A stretch of 45,145 bases of DNA, taken from positions 1 to 45,145 of the forward strand of contig CALLMJ010000022.1 in NCBI GenBank assembly GCA_938006875.1. Reading direction: 5' to 3'. This DNA comes from an uncultured Bacteroidia bacterium (GTDB lineage Bacteria > Bacteroidota > Bacteroidia > J057 > CALLMJ01). The notes below the pieces were generated by a model that saw only the letters and a program-made list of their open reading frames with translations, was not told the origin of the DNA and searched no databases. Position 1 is the stretch's first letter. Every line of letters begins with the position of its first letter. Positions 11,952 to 20,845 of this stretch are shown piece by piece. The position numbers and the translations under genes were made by a program.

Positions 11952-13217
11952 ATGGCACACGAAATTTTAAAAAGGTACTTACGTTCAGGACAAAGAATTT
12001 TTGTTCATGGCGTTGCAGCAAATCCCAGATATTTAGGTTCTGTACTCAATGAAGTCATTTTAGAACAAGACTTGAAAAATATAGATATAATTACTTTATG
12101 CCCGTTTGGAGAAGTTGCTTACAATCAAGCGGCTATGAATGGAAATGTATTTATCAATTCATTATTTGTCTCGGAACCTATTCGTAAAACGATTCAATCA
12201 GGTCATGGTTCTTATGTACCTGTTTTTTTAAGTGAAATACCTGAACTTTTTTCTTTTGGTATTTTACCATTAGATTTAGCCATTTTCCAAGTTTCACCTC
12301 CTGATGATCATGGATATTGTACGCTAGGCGTTTCGGTAGATATAGCATTAACTGCCTTAAAAATGGCAAAAGTTTGTATAGCTCAAATTAATCCAAGAAT
12401 GCCCAGAACCCATGGTGATGGTTTTGTACATATTTCCAAATTTGATGCAACCATTGAATTCCAAGAAGAATTACCTGAAATTTTATCTTCAGAACCAACC
12501 GATATAGAAAAAAAAATTGGAGAATATTGTGCTAGTTTAGTGGAAGATGGGGCTACTTTACAAATGGGAATTGGCGGCATTCCTAATGCGGCTTTAGCTT
12601 GTTTGCATAATCATAAAAATTTAGGCATCCATACTGAGATGTTTTCCGATGGGGTTATTTCTTTAGTTGAAGAAGGAGTGGTTAATGGAATTTACAAAAA
12701 TAAGCATCCTCAAAAAGTTGTAGCAGGTTTTGTGATTGGTTCTAGAAAAGTTTATGATTTTATAGATGATAATCCCTCAGTAGTTCTATTGGATTCCAAT
12801 TATGTAAATGATGATGCTGTAATTAGGTCTAATCCCAAAGTAGTTGCCATAAACTCAGCTATAGAAATTGATTTATTAGGGCAAGTTGCGGCTGATACTA
12901 TTGGCATGAAACAATTTTCAGGCATTGGAGGTCAAATGGATTTTATTAGAGGGGCTTCCTTATCTCCCGGCGGAAAACCTATTATTGCTTTACCTTCTAC
13001 CACCAACAAAGGAGTTTCTCGAATTGTACCCTTCTTAAATCAAGGAGCTTCCGTAACCACTACGCGTGCACACGTCCATTACGTTGTTACAGAATATGGA
13101 ATTGCTCAATTATTTGGAAAAAATATCCAGCAACGTATGAAAGCTTTAATAGAAATTGCTCACCCAGACCATAGAGAAACCCTAGAAAAAGCTGCTTTTG
13201 AAAGATTAAAAGGCTAA
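11952..13217 (+). CDS. Acetyl-CoA hydrolase/transferase family (family I CoA-transferase)
   Basis: This 421-residue cytoplasmic enzyme moves CoA between carboxylic acids through a glutamyl-CoA thioester. The likely catalytic residue is E229 in GIHTEMFSDG, matching the position in 4-hydroxybutyrate CoA-transferase-type enzymes. GIGGIPNAA (206-214) and the C-terminal SGIGGQMDFIRGA are the other family signatures. The length matches bacterial 4-hydroxybutyrate or acetate CoA-transferases; the exact acyl donor is not readable. It may work with the acetyl-CoA synthetase upstream in acetate handling, but they are far apart. A weak box (TAATATTG, 11922-11929) lies ahead of the start. It is followed by the trp leader. 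Confidence 0.88.
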   Translation: MAHEILKRYLRSGQRIFVHGVAANPRYLGSVLNEVILEQDLKNIDIITLCPFGEVAYNQAAMNGNVFINSLFVSEPIRKTIQSGHGSYVPVFLSEIPELFSFGILPLDLAIFQVSPPDDHGYCTLGVSVDIALTALKMAKVCIAQINPRMPRTHGDGFVHISKFDATIEFQEELPEILSSEPTDIEKKIGEYCASLVEDGATLQMGIGGIPNAALACLHNHKNLGIHTEMFSDGVISLVEEGVVNGIYKNKHPQKVVAGFVIGSRKVYDFIDDNPSVVLLDSNYVNDDAVIRSNPKVVAINSAIEIDLLGQVAADTIGMKQFSGIGGQMDFIRGASLSPGGKPIIALPSTTNKGVSRIVPFLNQGASVTTTRAHVHYVVTEYGIAQLFGKNIQQRMKALIEIAHPDHRETLEKAAFERLKG

Positions 13218-13368: not shown

Positions 13369-13376
13369 TAATTTTG
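13369..13376 (+). promoter_or_regulatory. -7 box of the trp operon
   Basis: TAATTTTG matches TAnnTTTG. It ends 5 bases before the leader-peptide ATG, so transcription should begin at or within a few bases of that ATG and the leader peptide would be translated from an essentially leaderless RNA. Confidence 0.6.
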
Positions 13377-13381
13377 CAACC

Positions 13382-13447
13382 ATGATAAAAAATTCGTTAG
13401 TATTAACTGCATGGTGGTGGCATTTCAACGACTACGACAGTAGGTAA
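13382..13447 (+). CDS. trpL: trp operon leader peptide (21 residues, three tandem Trp)
   Basis: The frame reads MIKNSLVLTAWWWHFNDYDS followed by R and a TAA stop. Codons 11-13 (13412-13420) are three successive TGG codons, far beyond chance for a 21-residue peptide just upstream of trpE. There is no Shine-Dalgarno sequence, as expected in this phylum. The last codons and the stop overlap ACAGTAGG (13437-13444), the 5' arm of the antiterminator. A ribosome that finishes translation would cover this arm, while one stalled at the Trp codons would leave it free. This is the sensor of a classical translation-coupled attenuator. Confidence 0.92.
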   Translation: MIKNSLVLTAWWWHFNDYDSR

Positions 13448-13494
13448 TGTCATTGCTATTAGTTTTTATTACCAAATTTTAACGTGCCTACTGT
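13437..13494 (+). promoter_or_regulatory. trp attenuator: antiterminator hairpin
   Basis: ACAGTAGG at 13437-13444 is perfectly complementary to CCTACTGT at 13487-13494, an 8-base stem with about 42 bases between the arms. The 3' arm is also the 5' arm of the terminator, so the two structures exclude each other. A weaker competing pairing, GGTAAT (13443-13448) with ATTACC (13468-13473), could act as a pause hairpin and takes two bases of the first arm. Stalling at the Trp codons frees the first arm and favours read-through. Confidence 0.85.
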
Positions 13495-13512
13495 TTTACA
13501 GTAGGTTTTTTT
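13486..13512 (+). terminator. trp attenuator: intrinsic terminator
   Basis: CCTACTGT, a TTT loop and ACAGTAGG form a perfect 8-base-pair hairpin, followed at once by seven T residues (13506-13512). It is 23 bases upstream of trpE. Completion of the leader peptide when Trp is plentiful should let it form and stop transcription. Confidence 0.9.
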
Positions 13513-13535
13513 ATTTTAAAAAAATTGATAAATTT

Positions 13536-14930
13536 ATGAAAAAAGAAAGTTATAAAGTTCACGTAGCCAAAATATTAGGAGATGAAATTACACCCGTAGA
13601 AGCTTACCAAAAAATACGGGCATTGTATCCAGTTAGTTTCCTTTTAGAAAGTTCTGATTACAAATCCAAAGAAAATAGTTTTTCTTATATCGTTTTTGAA
13701 CCGATTGGAAACTTAAAAGTTTTTACAAATAGTTATCAGTTTCGGTTGGGTAAAGAAATCCATAAATCCGAATACAATGGTTCTATACCCTTATCGGAAT
13801 TAATCCAAATCTTTTTAAATATTTTTGAAGTAGAAACAGAGAATCAAAAAGATTTTATTTTAAGTGGAATTTTTGGTTATATTGCCTACGATTCAATTCC
13901 TTTTTTTGAAAAAATTCAGATAGAACAAGATAAGCGTTTTCCACTTGTAAGTTATTATTTTTTCAAAAACCTTTTAATTTTTGACCATTTCCATAACCAA
14001 ATTTTTTTAGTAGAACATTTACAAGCCCATCAAACCTCACAAAAAAACAAGTTATTGAGGATTTTAGCACAAATGAGAAAACAATCGTTTGCATTTCAAT
14101 TAATTGGAAACGAAACTTCTAACTTTACTGATGATAAGTTTTTAGATGCTATTCACCAAGTTCAACACCATTGTAAAATGGGTAATGTATTTCAATTAGT
14201 ATTATCAAGGCAATTTTACCAATCCTATCAAGGTGATGATTTTCAAGTATATAGAGCTTTACGTTCTATTAACCCTTCTCCTTATTTATTTTATTTTGAT
14301 TTTGGAAATTTTAAATTGATGGGTTCTTCACCAGAAGCTCAAATTCGTGTAAAAAATAATATTGCCGCTACTTTTCCTATTGCAGGTACTTATCCTAGAA
14401 ATCATACTAATTTAACAGAACTTTCACAAAAATTATTAGCTGATATTAAAGAAAATGCAGAACATAACATGTTAGTAGATTTAGCAAGAAATGATTTGTC
14501 CAAACATGCAAAAAATATAACCGTTGAAAAACTAAAAGAAGTAGAAGTGTATTCTCATGTCATTCATTTGGTTTCTAAAATTCAAGCTGAACTAAATGAT
14601 TATCAAGACACTACCAAAGTATTATTAGATACTATACCTGCTGGTACTTTAAGTGGAGCACCTAAATATAAAGCGATGCAAATTATCAATGAATTAGAAA
14701 AACAGCCCAGAGGGCTTTATGGTGGTGCAGTGGGTTATATCGGTTTTAACGGAAATATTAATCATGCTATTTGCATACGTTCTTTTTTAGCCTATCAAAA
14801 TGTTTTACAATACCAAGCAGGCTGTGGTGTAGTTTATCTCTCCAAACCTGAAAATGAATTGAATGAAGTTTATCATAAAATATCTGCATTAAGAAAATCA
14901 TTACAAATTGCTCATGCTTATGAATACTAA
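13536..14930 (+). CDS. trpE: Anthranilate synthase component I
   Basis: TrpE converts chorismate and ammonia (delivered by TrpG) to anthranilate, the first committed step of Trp synthesis. The protein is 464 residues. The N-terminal LLESS motif at 36-40 is the Trp feedback-inhibition site found in TrpE but not in PabB, which argues for the Trp pathway. Catalytic signatures are present: MGSSPEAQ, FPIAGTYPRN, DLARNDLSK, and GTLSGAPKYKAMQII. It is the first structural gene after the attenuator and overlaps trpG by 11 bases. The enzyme is therefore probably controlled twice: by attenuation and by Trp binding. Confidence 0.96.
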   Translation: MKKESYKVHVAKILGDEITPVEAYQKIRALYPVSFLLESSDYKSKENSFSYIVFEPIGNLKVFTNSYQFRLGKEIHKSEYNGSIPLSELIQIFLNIFEVETENQKDFILSGIFGYIAYDSIPFFEKIQIEQDKRFPLVSYYFFKNLLIFDHFHNQIFLVEHLQAHQTSQKNKLLRILAQMRKQSFAFQLIGNETSNFTDDKFLDAIHQVQHHCKMGNVFQLVLSRQFYQSYQGDDFQVYRALRSINPSPYLFYFDFGNFKLMGSSPEAQIRVKNNIAATFPIAGTYPRNHTNLTELSQKLLADIKENAEHNMLVDLARNDLSKHAKNITVEKLKEVEVYSHVIHLVSKIQAELNDYQDTTKVLLDTIPAGTLSGAPKYKAMQIINELEKQPRGLYGGAVGYIGFNGNINHAICIRSFLAYQNVLQYQAGCGVVYLSKPENELNEVYHKISALRKSLQIAHAYEY

Positions 14931-15504
14931 AATTATCGTTATTGATAACTATGACTCGTTTACCTATAATTTAGTAAACTTACTCTACGAAGTCGGTGCA
15001 ACAGATTTAGAAGTAAAAAGAAATGATGAAATTTCCTTAGAATATATCCAAAATTTTGATAAAATTCTTATATCACCGGGTCCTGGATTGCCTCATGAAG
15101 CGGGTTTTACCATTCCTATAATTCAAACTTATAGTTCAACCAAAAGTATTTTGGGAGTATGTCTAGGACACCAATCTATTGGTGAGGCTTTTCATTCTCA
15201 TTTAAAAAATTTAGATTACCCTTTACATGGTGTAAGTTCTAAAATTAAAATCTTACAACAAGATTATTTGTTTCATCAATGCCCAAAAGAATTCCTGATT
15301 GGTCATTATCATTCTTGGGTGATAGGAGAATTAAGCGAAGAATTAGAACTTTTAGCAGTAGATGAAAAAGGAAATAATATGGCTATTCGTCATAAGTATT
15401 TGGATATTAGAGGATTACAATTTCATCCTGAATCTATATTAACAGAATACGGGTATCAAATCATTTACAATTGGGTTCATCATCAAAAAGAACAATCATT
15501 ATGA
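14920..15504 (+). CDS. trpG: Anthranilate synthase glutamine amidotransferase component
   Basis: This class I glutamine amidotransferase supplies ammonia to TrpE. The protein is 194 residues from ATG 14920 (MNTKIIVIDNYDSFTYNLV), the standard family opening; ATG 14914 and TTG 14908 are possible but add non-homologous residues. The catalytic Cys is C81 in GVCLGHQSIGEAF, and the His/Glu pair is in QFHPESIL. SPGPGLP is the oxyanion-strand motif. Its start lies inside the end of trpE and its stop overlaps the trpD start as ATGA, so the three are translationally coupled. It could also serve p-aminobenzoate synthase, as many TrpG proteins do. Confidence 0.95.
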   Translation: MNTKIIVIDNYDSFTYNLVNLLYEVGATDLEVKRNDEISLEYIQNFDKILISPGPGLPHEAGFTIPIIQTYSSTKSILGVCLGHQSIGEAFHSHLKNLDYPLHGVSSKIKILQQDYLFHQCPKEFLIGHYHSWVIGELSEELELLAVDEKGNNMAIRHKYLDIRGLQFHPESILTEYGYQIIYNWVHHQKEQSL

Positions 15505-16493
15505 AAAAAATCTTACAATCTTTATTGGATTACGAAAGTTTTGATAAAGAAAAAGCTAAACAAGTGTTAATAGATTTAACACAAAATGAATATCCAGCAT
15601 CACAAGTTGCCTCATTTTTAACGGTTTTTATGATGCGTGGCATCACTTTAGAAGAGCTAAAAGGATTTCGTGAAGCCCTTTTAGAACTTTGCATTCCTAT
15701 TGATTTAGGAACTAATCAAATCATTGATGTCTGTGGCACGGGTGGTGATTCTAAAAATACTTTTAACATTTCTACCTTAACAGCATTTGTGTTAGCAGGA
15801 GCTGGAATTCCTGTAGCTAAACATGGTAATTACGGAGTAACCTCCATATCAGGTTCTTCTACTGTGCTTCAAAATTTGGGGATTCATTTTACAAATTCAC
15901 AAGATTTACTTCGTAAGCAGTTAGAGAAAGCCAATATTTGCTTTATGCATGCTCCTTTATTCCATCCAGCATTAAAATCAGTAGCTAATATTCGTAAAGA
16001 ATTGCAAATAAAAACATTTTTTAACGTTTTAGGTCCTCTCATTAATCCTGCTCAACCTTTGTACCAATTCAATGGTGTTTTTAGCTTAGAATTAGCAAGA
16101 ATGTATCACTTTTTGCTTCAACAAGAAAATAAAAAATATTTTGTTTATCATACCTTAGATGGCTACGATGAAATTTCTTTGACCTCTGACTTTAAACTTT
16201 TTTCTTATTATCACGAAGATTTAATAAACCCTATGGATTTAGGATTTGATTGTTTACCACCTGAGGCACTTCAAGGCGGTAATACCGTTCAAGAAAGTAC
16301 AGAAATTTTTATGAATATTTTAAAAGGAAAAGGCAATAATGCTCAAAATCAAGTTCTTATAGCCAATGCAGCATTAGCAATCCAGTTATTCCATTCTTAT
16401 GATTTAGATACCGCTAAAAATTTAGCAGAAGATAGTTTATTGAACTTAAAAGCATTAAAATGTTTTGAAACCCTTAAATCTTTAAATGTATGA
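15501..16493 (+). CDS. trpD: Anthranilate phosphoribosyltransferase
   Basis: TrpD joins anthranilate to PRPP. At 330 residues from ATG 15501, it has the PRPP-binding signature DVCGTGGDSKNTFNIST, the KHGNYGVTS segment, the FMHAPLFHPALKSVANIRKEL anthranilate-site region and the FNVLGPLINPA motif. The open frame extends ten codons upstream but the ATGA overlap with the trpG stop (15501-15504) fixes the start. It is a stand-alone TrpD, not fused to TrpG. It overlaps trpC by 4 bases. Confidence 0.95.
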   Translation: MKKILQSLLDYESFDKEKAKQVLIDLTQNEYPASQVASFLTVFMMRGITLEELKGFREALLELCIPIDLGTNQIIDVCGTGGDSKNTFNISTLTAFVLAGAGIPVAKHGNYGVTSISGSSTVLQNLGIHFTNSQDLLRKQLEKANICFMHAPLFHPALKSVANIRKELQIKTFFNVLGPLINPAQPLYQFNGVFSLELARMYHFLLQQENKKYFVYHTLDGYDEISLTSDFKLFSYYHEDLINPMDLGFDCLPPEALQGGNTVQESTEIFMNILKGKGNNAQNQVLIANAALAIQLFHSYDLDTAKNLAEDSLLNLKALKCFETLKSLNV

Positions 16494-17299
16494 ATGTATT
16501 AGAAAAAATTGTTTTGGACAAACGCAAAGAAATTGAAGAAAAAAAATCTTTATATCCCATAAAATATTTGGAAAAGTCCATCTACTTTTCAACGGAGTGC
16601 GTTTCCTTAAAGAAATATTTACAAAAATTTGAAAATCAATTTTCTATTATAGCAGAGTTCAAACGAAAATCTCCATCCAAAGGAGTTATTAATGAATATG
16701 CAAAAGTAGAAGAAGTTACTTTAAGCTATATGCAGTCAGGAGCTTGTGCACTTTCCATTTTAACAGATGAAAAATATTTTGGTGCTAAATCCGAAGACTT
16801 ATCCATTGCACGGAATTGGCATTACTGCCCCATTTTACGTAAAGACTTTATTTTAGAGGAGTATCAAATCCTTGAAGCCAAATCTTTTGGTGCTGATGTT
16901 ATTCTGCTAATTGTAAGAATTTTAGATTTACCTCAAATTCAAAAACTTTCACATTTTGCTAAAAGCCATGGTTTAGAAGTACTTTTAGAATTTCATGATA
17001 AAAACGACATTTATAAATGTTCTCATTTTACTGATTTTGATATTGCTGGAATCAATCACCGTAATTTAGATACTCTTCAATTTGACTATCAAAATAGTAT
17101 TGAACTTTTAGAAAAATTACCTAAAGAAAAGTTCAAAATTGCAGAAAGCGGTATTCATTCACCTGATACTTTAGTTAACCTAAAAAAGTCAGGATATGAT
17201 GGTTTTCTGATTGGTGAATATTTTATGAAGTCGCACAATCCAGGTTTAGCTTGTAAAGAATTGATTGAAAAAGCACTAGAAATATGGAAAAAAACCTAA
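16490..17299 (+). CDS. trpC: Indole-3-glycerol phosphate synthase
   Basis: TrpC converts CdRP to indole-3-glycerol phosphate with loss of CO2 and water. The protein is 269 residues, the size of the monofunctional enzyme. Signatures are IIAEFKRKSPSKG (with catalytic Lys), ILTDEKYFGAK, PILRKDFILEEYQI, GINHRNLDT and the phosphate-binding IAESGIHSP. A (beta/alpha)8 barrel follows a short helical N-terminus. Its end overlaps trpF by 16 bases. Confidence 0.95.
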   Translation: MNVLEKIVLDKRKEIEEKKSLYPIKYLEKSIYFSTECVSLKKYLQKFENQFSIIAEFKRKSPSKGVINEYAKVEEVTLSYMQSGACALSILTDEKYFGAKSEDLSIARNWHYCPILRKDFILEEYQILEAKSFGADVILLIVRILDLPQIQKLSHFAKSHGLEVLLEFHDKNDIYKCSHFTDFDIAGINHRNLDTLQFDYQNSIELLEKLPKEKFKIAESGIHSPDTLVNLKKSGYDGFLIGEYFMKSHNPGLACKELIEKALEIWKKT

Positions 17300-17913
17300 A
17301 AATTAAAGTATGTGGTCTGAATGATTATGTTAATATTCAGGAAGTTGTACAACTTCAACCAGATTTTTTGGGCTTTATTTTTTATTCACTTTCTAAAAGA
17401 AATTTTACCTTAAAAGCATTGCCTCCCATTCCAGAGGAAGTAAAGAAAGTAGGAGTTTTTGTAAACCCATCTTTTGATGAAGTAATAAGAAAAGTTAAAT
17501 TTTATAATTTGGATTTTGTTCAACTACATGGACAAGAAAGTCCTGATTTCTGCGAACAATTAAAATACAAAGGAATTGAAATCATCAAAGCATTTGGAAT
17601 TAACGAAAAATTTGATTTTCATATCCTTAAATCCTACGAACCCTACTGTATTTATTTTTTATTAGATGCAGAAAAGGGCGGAAGTGGTAAATCTTTTGAT
17701 TGGAAATTGTTAAAAAAATATAAAAATCAAACGTCTTTTTTGCTGGCAGGAGGCATAAGTTTAGAAAATTTAAACGAAGTTTTAAACCTTAATCATCCAC
17801 AAATGATAGGATTAGATTGGAACAGCCAATGGGAAATTCTCCCTGGGATTAAAGATATTTCATTACTCAAACAAGGATTTCAAAACATTAGAAAATATGA
17901 TAAGACCCAATAA
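17284..17913 (+). CDS. trpF: Phosphoribosylanthranilate isomerase
   Basis: TrpF isomerises PRA to CdRP between the TrpD and TrpC steps. The 209-residue protein has the family opening [12 protein letters not shown] (catalytic Cys), [39 protein letters not shown] (with catalytic Asp) and the phosphate-binding [11 protein letters not shown]. It overlaps trpC at its start and trpB at its end (17 bases), unusually tight packing that suggests strong translational coupling. Confidence 0.95.
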
Positions 17914-19075
17914 AAATGGATATTACGGTGAATATGGAGGAGCTTTTGTTCCTGAAATGTTGTATCAGAATGTCAATGAACTTCAAGAGAATTATGAAAA
18001 AATTATTTTCTCTGAAAATTTTCAAAAAGAATATAAAAATTACTTAAAAAATTACGTAGGAAGGCCTACTCCTTTATACGAAGCAAGGAATTTATCACAA
18101 AAGTATGGAACCAAAATTTATTTAAAACGGGAAGATTTATGCCATACAGGAGCCCATAAAATCAACAATGCTATAGGGCAAGTTTTGTTAGCCAAGTATA
18201 TGGGAAAGAAAAAAATCATCGCAGAAACCGGTGCAGGACAACATGGAGTAGCCACAGCAACAGCTTGTGCCTTATTAAATATGCCTTGCGAAATTTTTAT
18301 GGGTGAAAAAGATATGGAAAGACAAAAACTGAATGTTTTGAGAATGAAAATGTTAGGTTCAAAAGTTACCCCTGCTGTATCAGGAAGTAAAACCCTCAAA
18401 GATGCTACCAATGAAGCCATAAGAGCATGGATTCAAGATCCCCAAAATACTTATTACGTTATTGGTTCAGTTGTAGGTCCGCATCCTTATCCCGATATAG
18501 TTACACTTTTCCAATCCATTATTAGCCAAGAAATTAACTCACAACTTCATGAATATGGCTATGAATTACCGAATTATGTAATTGCGTGCGTAGGTGGTGG
18601 AAGTAACGCCATTGGAGCATTTTATCAATTTATAAGTAATAGTTTCACAAAACTTATTGCCGTTGAAGCCGCAGGAGAAGGAATTCATACCCCAAAAACC
18701 GCTGCAACCATTGCACTGGGTAAAAAAGGAATTTTACATGGCTCTTTGAGTTATTTAATCCAAACCGAAGACGGACAAATCTTTGAGCCTCATTCCATTT
18801 CTGCAGGTCTAGATTATCCCGGTATTGGTCCTATTCATAGCTATTTACATGACGCTAAGTTATCCCAAGTACTTTCTGCAACTGACCAAGAAGCTTTAGA
18901 AGCGGCTTTAGAACTCACTCAATTAGAAGGAATTATTCCAGCATTAGAATCTGCTCATGCGATTGCGGCTTTAAAAAAATTGACTTTTCAACCTAATGAA
19001 ATTGTGGTAATTAATCTTTCTGGACGTGGCGATAAAGATATGAACACTTATCAACAAGTATTTCAATATGAATAA
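17897..19075 (+). CDS. trpB: Tryptophan synthase beta chain
   Basis: TrpB condenses indole with serine to make Trp, using PLP. The 392-residue protein has the opening [14 protein letters not shown], the PLP lysine K88 in [13 protein letters not shown], the [11 protein letters not shown] segment, the PLP-phosphate loop [12 protein letters not shown], and the [11 protein letters not shown] and SGRGDKDM signatures. Its pattern is that of the standard TrpB1 that partners TrpA. It overlaps the trpA start by 8 bases. Confidence 0.96.
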
Positions 19076-19835
19076 ACTACAAAAAATTTTCCAAAATAAA
19101 AATCAAAAATTATTGTCCATTTATTACATGGCTGGTTACCCTCAATTATCAGACACTGTGCCTTTGATTAGTTATTTATCTAAAAATGAAGTTGATTTAA
19201 TAGAAATTGGATTTCCTTTTTCTGACCCATTAGCAGATGGACCTGTAATCCAATCGGCAAGCCAAAAAGCTATTCAAAATGGTATGAATTTAAAAGTTCT
19301 TTTTCAACAACTTACACTACTTCCTCCTGTATCAACTCCTTTAATTTTAATGGGTTATTTGAATCCTATTTTACAAATGGGGATACCTCAATTTTTAGAA
19401 CAATGTTCTCAAAACCAAATTGATGGGCTCATTATACCCGATATGCCCTTAGAATTTTATGAAAAATATTTTCAATCGGAAATGCAATCACGCAACATCA
19501 GCAGCATTTTTTTGGTAACACCTTCTACATCATTTCATAGAATGCAAAAAATCAAAGAATTAACTACAGGATTTGTTTATGTAGTTTCTGACCATTCCAT
19601 TACAGGTCAAAATGTTCATTTTGAAAAACAAAAAAGTTATTACGAAAATATACAAATGCATTTTCAAGATTTACCTAAAATGATTGGTTTTGGAATACGA
19701 GATAAACAGACCTTTCAGATGGCTTGTGAATATGCAAACGGTGCAATTATTGGTACTGAATTTTTAAAATTCATTGAAAAACATAGTATTACATTAGAAA
19801 ATATAAAAAACTTTATTCAAAGCATAAAATCATGA
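19068..19835 (+). CDS. trpA: Tryptophan synthase alpha chain
   Basis: TrpA cleaves indole-3-glycerol phosphate to indole, which passes through a tunnel to TrpB. The 255-residue TIM barrel keeps the catalytic pair, E46 in [11 protein letters not shown] and D57 in LADGPVIQ, and the phosphate-binding GFGIRDKQT region. The length is slightly short but normal for the family. Its stop overlaps the next start as ATGA, linking it to the DAHP synthase. Confidence 0.95.
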
Positions 19836-20845
19836 TTTTAATACAGTTACAACCATTCATCAGCGAAGACAACAAAGAAGAATTAAAATCCATTTTCATA
19901 GAACAAAAAGGAAAAATTTCAGAAGTTCAAACAGGATTACAGCGTTTTTGGGTAGTGCAAATAGCACAAAAAATGGATATTCGTGTTATTGGTAATAAAG
20001 ATTATGTCAAAGATGTACATTATGTACCAGAACCTTATCCGTTGGTATCCAACAAATGGAGAGTTGAACCCTCAGTTTATGATTTAGGAAATGGGGTTTT
20101 TATAGGTGGTAAAAATGGAGAAAAAATTATAGCCGGTCCTTGTTCCATAGAAAATGAACAACAAGTTGAAAAAATTTGCCAATTTTTACATAATAACGGA
20201 GTAAGTTTGATGCGTGGAGGTATTTTTAAACCCAGAAGTTCACCGTATTCTTTTAGAGGTCTTGGAATTGAAGGTTTAAAAATGTTTTACCAAATAGCCC
20301 AAAGCTACAATATCAAAATAGTTACCGAAGTAATGGAAATTAATCAAATAGAAGCTATGTATCCTTATGTAGATGTTTTTCAAGTTGGTGCAAGGAACTC
20401 TCAGAATTTCAATTTATTAGACGCACTTGGCAAAATAGATAAACCTGTATTACTCAAAAGAGGAATTTCTGGTACGATTGAAGAACTTTTATATTCTGCT
20501 GAATACATTTTCTCTGCAGGGAATCCCAAAATTATTTTATGCGAAAGAGGTATCCGAACCTATGAAACAGCTTATAGAAATTGTTTTGATGTCAATGCTA
20601 TAGCAATTTTAAAAGATAAATCTCATTTACCTGTTTTTGGAGACCCTTCTCATGGAATTGGTATTAGAAAATATGTTCCCAACATAGCATTGGCTGCATT
20701 AGCCGCAGGCGCTGACGGTATCTTAATAGAAGTTCATCCAGAACCTGAAAAATCGGTTTCAGACGCTCAGCAAACTTTGAGTTTTGAAGAACTTAAAAAA
20801 ATTATAAATTTTACAAAGAGTTTGATATATAAGAAGTTTTCATAA
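19832..20845 (+). CDS. aroF: DAHP synthase, type I-beta with N-terminal ferredoxin-like domain
   Basis: 3-Deoxy-7-phosphoheptulonate synthase joins PEP and erythrose 4-phosphate at the start of the shikimate pathway. In the 337-residue protein about 75 N-terminal residues resemble the ferredoxin-like regulatory domain seen in type I-beta enzymes. The barrel follows, with IIAGPCSIE, LMRGGIFKPRSSPYSF, FQVGARNSQNF, LLKRG, ILCERGIRTYE and PVFGDPSHGIG, the metal and substrate motifs. In characterised relatives this N-terminal domain mediates feedback inhibition by aromatic amino acids; the effector here is unknown. It is the last gene of the trp operon and is coupled to trpA by a 4-base overlap, so the attenuator also controls flux into the shikimate pathway. 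Confidence 0.92.
   Translation: MILIQLQPFISEDNKEELKSIFIEQKGKISEVQTGLQRFWVVQIAQKMDIRVIGNKDYVKDVHYVPEPYPLVSNKWRVEPSVYDLGNGVFIGGKNGEKIIAGPCSIENEQQVEKICQFLHNNGVSLMRGGIFKPRSSPYSFRGLGIEGLKMFYQIAQSYNIKIVTEVMEINQIEAMYPYVDVFQVGARNSQNFNLLDALGKIDKPVLLKRGISGTIEELLYSAEYIFSAGNPKIILCERGIRTYETAYRNCFDVNAIAILKDKSHLPVFGDPSHGIGIRKYVPNIALAALAAGADGILIEVHPEPEKSVSDAQQTLSFEELKKIINFTKSLIYKKFS

Follow-up and report, generated by a model that had tools for sequence, protein, structure and literature searches.

A predicted ribosome-mediated attenuator ahead of the trp genes of an uncultured Bacteroidia bacterium, with a near-leaderless start suggested by its promoter box

How might the tryptophan biosynthesis genes of an uncultured Bacteroidia bacterium be controlled? 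In the window analysed here (the whole stretch of DNA, 45,145 nucleotides long), a short ORF containing consecutive Trp codons sits directly upstream of the trp genes, and an intrinsic terminator lies between this ORF and trpE (Table 1). Judged from sequence, the element is very probably a ribosome-mediated transcription attenuator that acts on trpEGDCFBA and on a gene for DAHP synthase; the leader-peptide ORF on which it is built would be leaderless or nearly so. The DAHP synthase gene (window 19832-20845) overlaps the end of trpA, so a Trp attenuator would also control the entry into the shared aromatic pathway. A CoA-transferase gene (window 11952-13217) lies upstream, with 164 nt between its end and the leader ATG; it is closest to the butyryl-CoA:acetate type, with a score under the curated threshold. 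In the genome the pattern ATG..TGGTGGTGG has 37 matches, unscreened for reading frame or context, and a His-run leader pattern has one.

Table 1. Features of the putative trp attenuator and the genes downstream of it (window positions)
Feature	Position	Strand	Remarks
TAATTTTG, match to the Bacteroidota sigma-A -7 box TAnnTTTG	13369..13376	+	exact; 5 nt before the leader ATG
Leader peptide ORF, MIKNSLVLTAWWWHFNDYDSR plus stop (MIKNSLVLTA-WWW-HFNDYDSR)	13382..13447	+	21 codons + stop; ATG 13382, TAA 13445-13447
Helix P1, 5' side: Trp-codon stretch	13402..13425	+	counterpart of enteric segment 1; fold and conserved pairing
Three tandem Trp codons TGGTGGTGG (TGG x3), predicted sensor	13412..13420	+	
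Antiterminator arm ACAGTAGG, end of the leader ORF	13437..13444	+	extended pairing 13436-13446
Helix P1, 3' side: stop codon onward	13446..13466	+	fold and conserved pairing
Shared arm CCTACTGT: antiterminator 3' side and terminator 5' side	13487..13494	+	
Terminator 3' arm ACAGTAGG	13498..13505	+	exact copy of the antiterminator arm
U7 tract (seven T)	13506..13512	+	predicted termination site
trpE, anthranilate synthase component I	13536..14930	+	first controlled gene (predicted)
trpG, trpD, trpC, trpF, trpB, trpA and DAHP synthase gene	14908..20845	+	overlapping or nearly so; predicted attenuator control

The positions that the first-pass annotation gave for the ORF, the Trp codons, the arms and the T tract all proved exact, and its central observation was confirmed: the arm at 13437-13444 pairs with 13487-13494, which can alternatively form a terminator followed by seven T. 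The shared arm CCTACTGT is complementary to both copies of ACAGTAGG, those beginning at 13437 and at 13498. When the leader segment was shuffled 20,000 times, the exact 8-mer pairing turned up 3 times and arm-terminator pairing of at least the observed strength 17 times. The hairpin at 13487-13512 is the sole terminator that the terminator scan found in the stretch (0.1 expected in shuffles), and the folding energy of the leader RNA is -38.5 kcal/mol (z = -4.8), a value that none of 200 shuffles equalled.

The description of this leader as a simple two-structure design proved incomplete. In the minimum-energy fold the Trp-codon stretch pairs with the bases after the stop codon in a strong helix, P1, which is conserved and encloses the antiterminator arm in its loop. 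P1 is the counterpart of the enteric Trp-codon helix, and a reading with two structures therefore leaves out a component. The stop codon had also been placed on the regulatory arm itself. This is true of the extended helix, in which U13445 (G.U) and A13446 (A-U) carry the pairing past 13444 into the stop codon, but not of the 8-nt arm, whose end is one base before it.

The working of the window attenuator, from the start of transcription through translation of the ORF to termination and the response to Trp, is predicted from these features as follows. RNA polymerase would start at about 13381, and a ribosome would load on the 5'-terminal AUG and then trail the polymerase. With charged tRNA-Trp plentiful, the ribosome would reach the stop codon (13445) and cover the arm at 13437-13444; CCTACTGT would then pair with the downstream copy, and transcription would end near 13512. 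With Trp scarce, a ribosome stalled at 13412-13420 would open P1 and leave the arm free to capture CCTACTGT ahead of synthesis of the terminator 3' arm, giving readthrough into trpE. Without translation, P1 would form, the arm would be looped out and the terminator would win.

Folds computed with ribosome footprints assumed from general knowledge are consistent with each of these states. A ribosome placed on the Trp codons, once RNA polymerase has reached 13494, allows the antiterminator to form (-13.3 kcal/mol). Moving the ribosome to the stop codon leaves the terminator alone, and the naked full-length RNA favours P1 together with the terminator. On the complete transcript the terminator state is the more stable (-18.7 vs -14.8), so that antitermination would hinge, as it generally does, on which segments are synthesised first. 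The proposal that ribosome position decides the outcome thus keeps its core, the competing arms being strongly supported across the phylum, but has to accommodate a third helix.

Sensors other than the ribosome, namely TRAP, TrpR and T-box elements, regulate trp genes elsewhere among bacteria. That such a protein or tRNA sensor takes the place of the ribosome here is nevertheless extremely unlikely, since the genome contains no match to the TrpR or TRAP families in searches whose controls were positive, and the window contains no match to the T-box family. With the regulator genes absent from the genome and the T-box family unmatched in the window, we rejected these three forms of control.

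Conservation was assessed in two sets of loci. A TrpE search gave a first set of 55 loci, 49 of which are from Bacteroidota and have enough upstream sequence; a second set comprised 57 further trpE loci from 198 genomes of the phylum, and a few species may be common to both sets. A Trp-rich leader ORF precedes trpE in 46 of the 49 loci, followed in every case (46/46) by a U-tailed hairpin. The second set has leader and terminator in 55 of 57 loci, including all 44 from the same class; the two in which no Trp-rich leader with terminator was found upstream of trpE are L113 and L118. Among the phylum members outside the class (L110-L122), 11 of 13 have Trp-rich leaders, which are often longer and in some cases contain four Trp codons, so the device reaches beyond the class. 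The first-pass annotation had named homologous loci lacking the Trp run or the hairpins as evidence that would count against it; both sets together give 101 related loci with a Trp-codon leader and a terminator before trpE.

These loci also bear on an alternative, a constitutive terminator next to a fortuitous ORF, in which the hairpin merely lowers trp transcription and the ORF senses nothing. In its favour, the terminator is recognisable on its own. The Trp codons, however, are kept in more than 100 loci while the remainder of the peptide drifts, and the alternative helices are partner-specific, as described below; we consider a constitutive terminator very improbable.

In a MAFFT alignment of 29 relatives the leaders align only around TGGTGGTGG, which made the alignment unusable for a covariance model. 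Because the leaders drift too much to be aligned, we used a partner-swap permutation in its place, in which the summed pairing energy of each leader end with its own terminator was compared with that obtained with the terminators of other species (20,000 permutations). The target in the arm test was widened beyond the terminator 5' arm and loop, as the pairing of some arms extends past the loop to the 3' arm. Arm-terminator pairing summed to -628.8 kcal/mol with own partners against -407 ± 18 kcal/mol with swapped ones in the first set (47 loci), and to -895.5 against -571 ± 24 in the second (55 loci); the corresponding values for P1 were -534 against -429 ± 15 and -628 against -515 ± 16. The observed sum was reached in 0 of 20,000 permutations in all four comparisons, counts that are not strict probabilities because the loci have common ancestry. 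The arm pairing of several relatives (e.g. L016, L018 and L022) scores unremarkably when taken individually.

The median distance between the first Trp codon and the start of the arm is 25 nt in the second set, where the arm finishes in the vicinity of the stop codon. This placement, beyond a stalled ribosome and under a finishing one, is what the mechanism needs. Comparison of the window with a congener (L005) illustrates how the pairing is kept: arms 1 and 3 are altered in parallel in the same two places (ACAGTAGGT vs GCAGTAGGC in both), and the shared arm is unchanged (GCCTACTGT). Across species, the alternative antiterminator helix, which is exclusive with the terminator, is kept by such matching changes. 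The anatomy, its conservation and the partner-specific pairing of both alternative helices are direct observations.

The sigma-A -7 box opens the range 13369-13535 covered by the first-pass annotation but goes unmentioned there. The -7 box lies 4-5 nt from the transcription start (PMC6847099), and in the published maps of Flavobacterium psychrophilum it occupies -12 to -5 (PMC9723704). With this published spacing, a box at 13369-13376 gives an expected start at about 13381-13382, and we infer a near-leaderless transcript whose 5' end lies 0-1 nt before the leader AUG. An exact box lies 3-12 nt before the ATG in 24 of 47 loci of the first set (0.55 in shuffles) and in 21 of 55 of the second, in which 14 more loci, mostly of the family that matches RF01692 (see below), have it at 13-20 nt. 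The box position implies a 5' leader of 0-8 nt for almost half of the loci and of 12-14 nt for most Flavobacteriaceae-like genomes of the second set; in about a third of the loci the 40 nt nearest the leader ATG contain no exact box. The predicted near-leaderless design contrasts with F. johnsoniae, where 87% of the leaders calculated from probable promoters are longer than 10 nt (PMC6847099), and with F. psychrophilum, where just 5.5% of mRNAs are leaderless (PMC9723704). Among open papers, a literature search returned nothing on leaderless attenuators of Bacteroidota in titles or abstracts.

A leaderless start would have a further consequence, as termination would free a leaderless mRNA of about 130 nt. 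In Sinorhizobium meliloti the trpL RNA begins at the leader AUG, i.e. is leaderless, and the terminated leader RNA (rnTrpL) and its peptide (peTrpL) act in trans (PMC7298713). The likeness raises the possibility that the window element acts mainly in this way, with attenuation secondary. We give this only the slightest probability, as the peptide outside the Trp run is not conserved among the relatives.

Ribosome-mediated attenuation thus remains the preferred reading, and the two sets of loci suggest a broader proposal to which we assign an even chance. In Bacteroidota, whose mRNAs are without Shine-Dalgarno sites, trp attenuation may be ancestral and class-wide, with a promoter that characteristically puts the leader AUG on the RNA 5' end or no more than a few bases from it, so that the first ribosome would load without delay behind the polymerase; in some lineages serial attenuators would have been added, or the leader placed right after a gene for the ribosomal protein bTHX.

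Tandem Trp-rich leader ORFs, each with its own terminator hairpin, precede trpE in L011 (2190, 2324), L037 (2184, 2323), L045 (2199, 2336) and L054 (2178, 2358); these four are mostly from Bacteroidales MAGs, and in none of them does an exact -7 box lie directly before the second leader. In L013, L021, L066, L069 and L082 the leader ATG comes a few bases at most after the stop codon of a bTHX-like small ribosomal protein gene (L021, for example, has GCTGAATAAATG), and the trp leader is not preceded by a TAnnTTTG box; these leaders may be translated by coupling. Other RNA elements in the trpE-flanking loci are a SAM riboswitch (L009, 2077-2183, minus strand) and small SRP RNA genes (L021, L031 and L039).

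Overall, the window element appears to be a real attenuator, ordinary in kind, whose predicted near-leaderless design is slightly unusual. What is new is the class-wide antiterminator/terminator anatomy and a sigma-A -7 box set for a probable start 0-1 nt before the leader AUG. If that start is true, these leaders offer a natural test of the coupling between ribosome and RNA polymerase without Shine-Dalgarno sites.

The lineage, which had been thought to stand out, does not. The trp leaders of Bacteroidota are already described by Rfam family RF01692, Bacteroid-trp (Weinberg et al. 2010, PMC2864571), and the kind is therefore known; leader-peptide attenuation has also been reported in F. psychrophilum (PMC9723704). 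Both RF01692 and the window element lie upstream of Bacteroidota trp genes, and in both the 5' strand of a helix contains consecutive UGG codons; the RF01692 model further shares an AUG near the 5' end and UGGUGGUG in its consensus. Unlike the window element, the alignments of the model end at GGCUUGUC and lack both the antiterminator and the terminator helix, which are supplied here. RF01692 does not match the window even at E <= 10 (gathering score 49 bits), and a scan of the genome gave no match on the window's contig. It scores above the cut-off in 3 of the 40 relatives scanned and in 15 of the 198 phylum genomes, all of one family, a count from which stricter filters may have lost some. 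The Trp attenuator thus spans the class, well past the reach of the model, because its arms drift freely while the pairing is kept. In its predicted working the window element resembles Bacteroid-trp, of which it is probably a homologue, though it falls below the RF01692 score.

In F. psychrophilum, structured leaders with short peptides precede amino-acid operons, and Bacteroid-trp lies upstream of trp; the system is of the same phylum, and the available text of the two reports treats one species, without an arm-by-arm comparison across the phylum (PMC9723704; PMC6414381). S. meliloti resembles the window in having trp genes without transcriptional repression and Trp attenuation upstream of trpE (PMC7298713); it differs in phylum and in sequence, and the leaderless start in the window is deduced from the promoter box.

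No covariance-model match to the Trp_leader family (RF00513) was found in the window. The trp leader of Escherichia coli contains a pair of Trp codons and a Shine-Dalgarno site. Its trpL and the window element are alike in the Trp codons of the leader ORF, in the competing antiterminator and terminator, and in a helix that sequesters the Trp codons; unlike in E. coli, the antiterminator arm of the window is a separate segment in the P1 loop, identical in sequence to the terminator arm.
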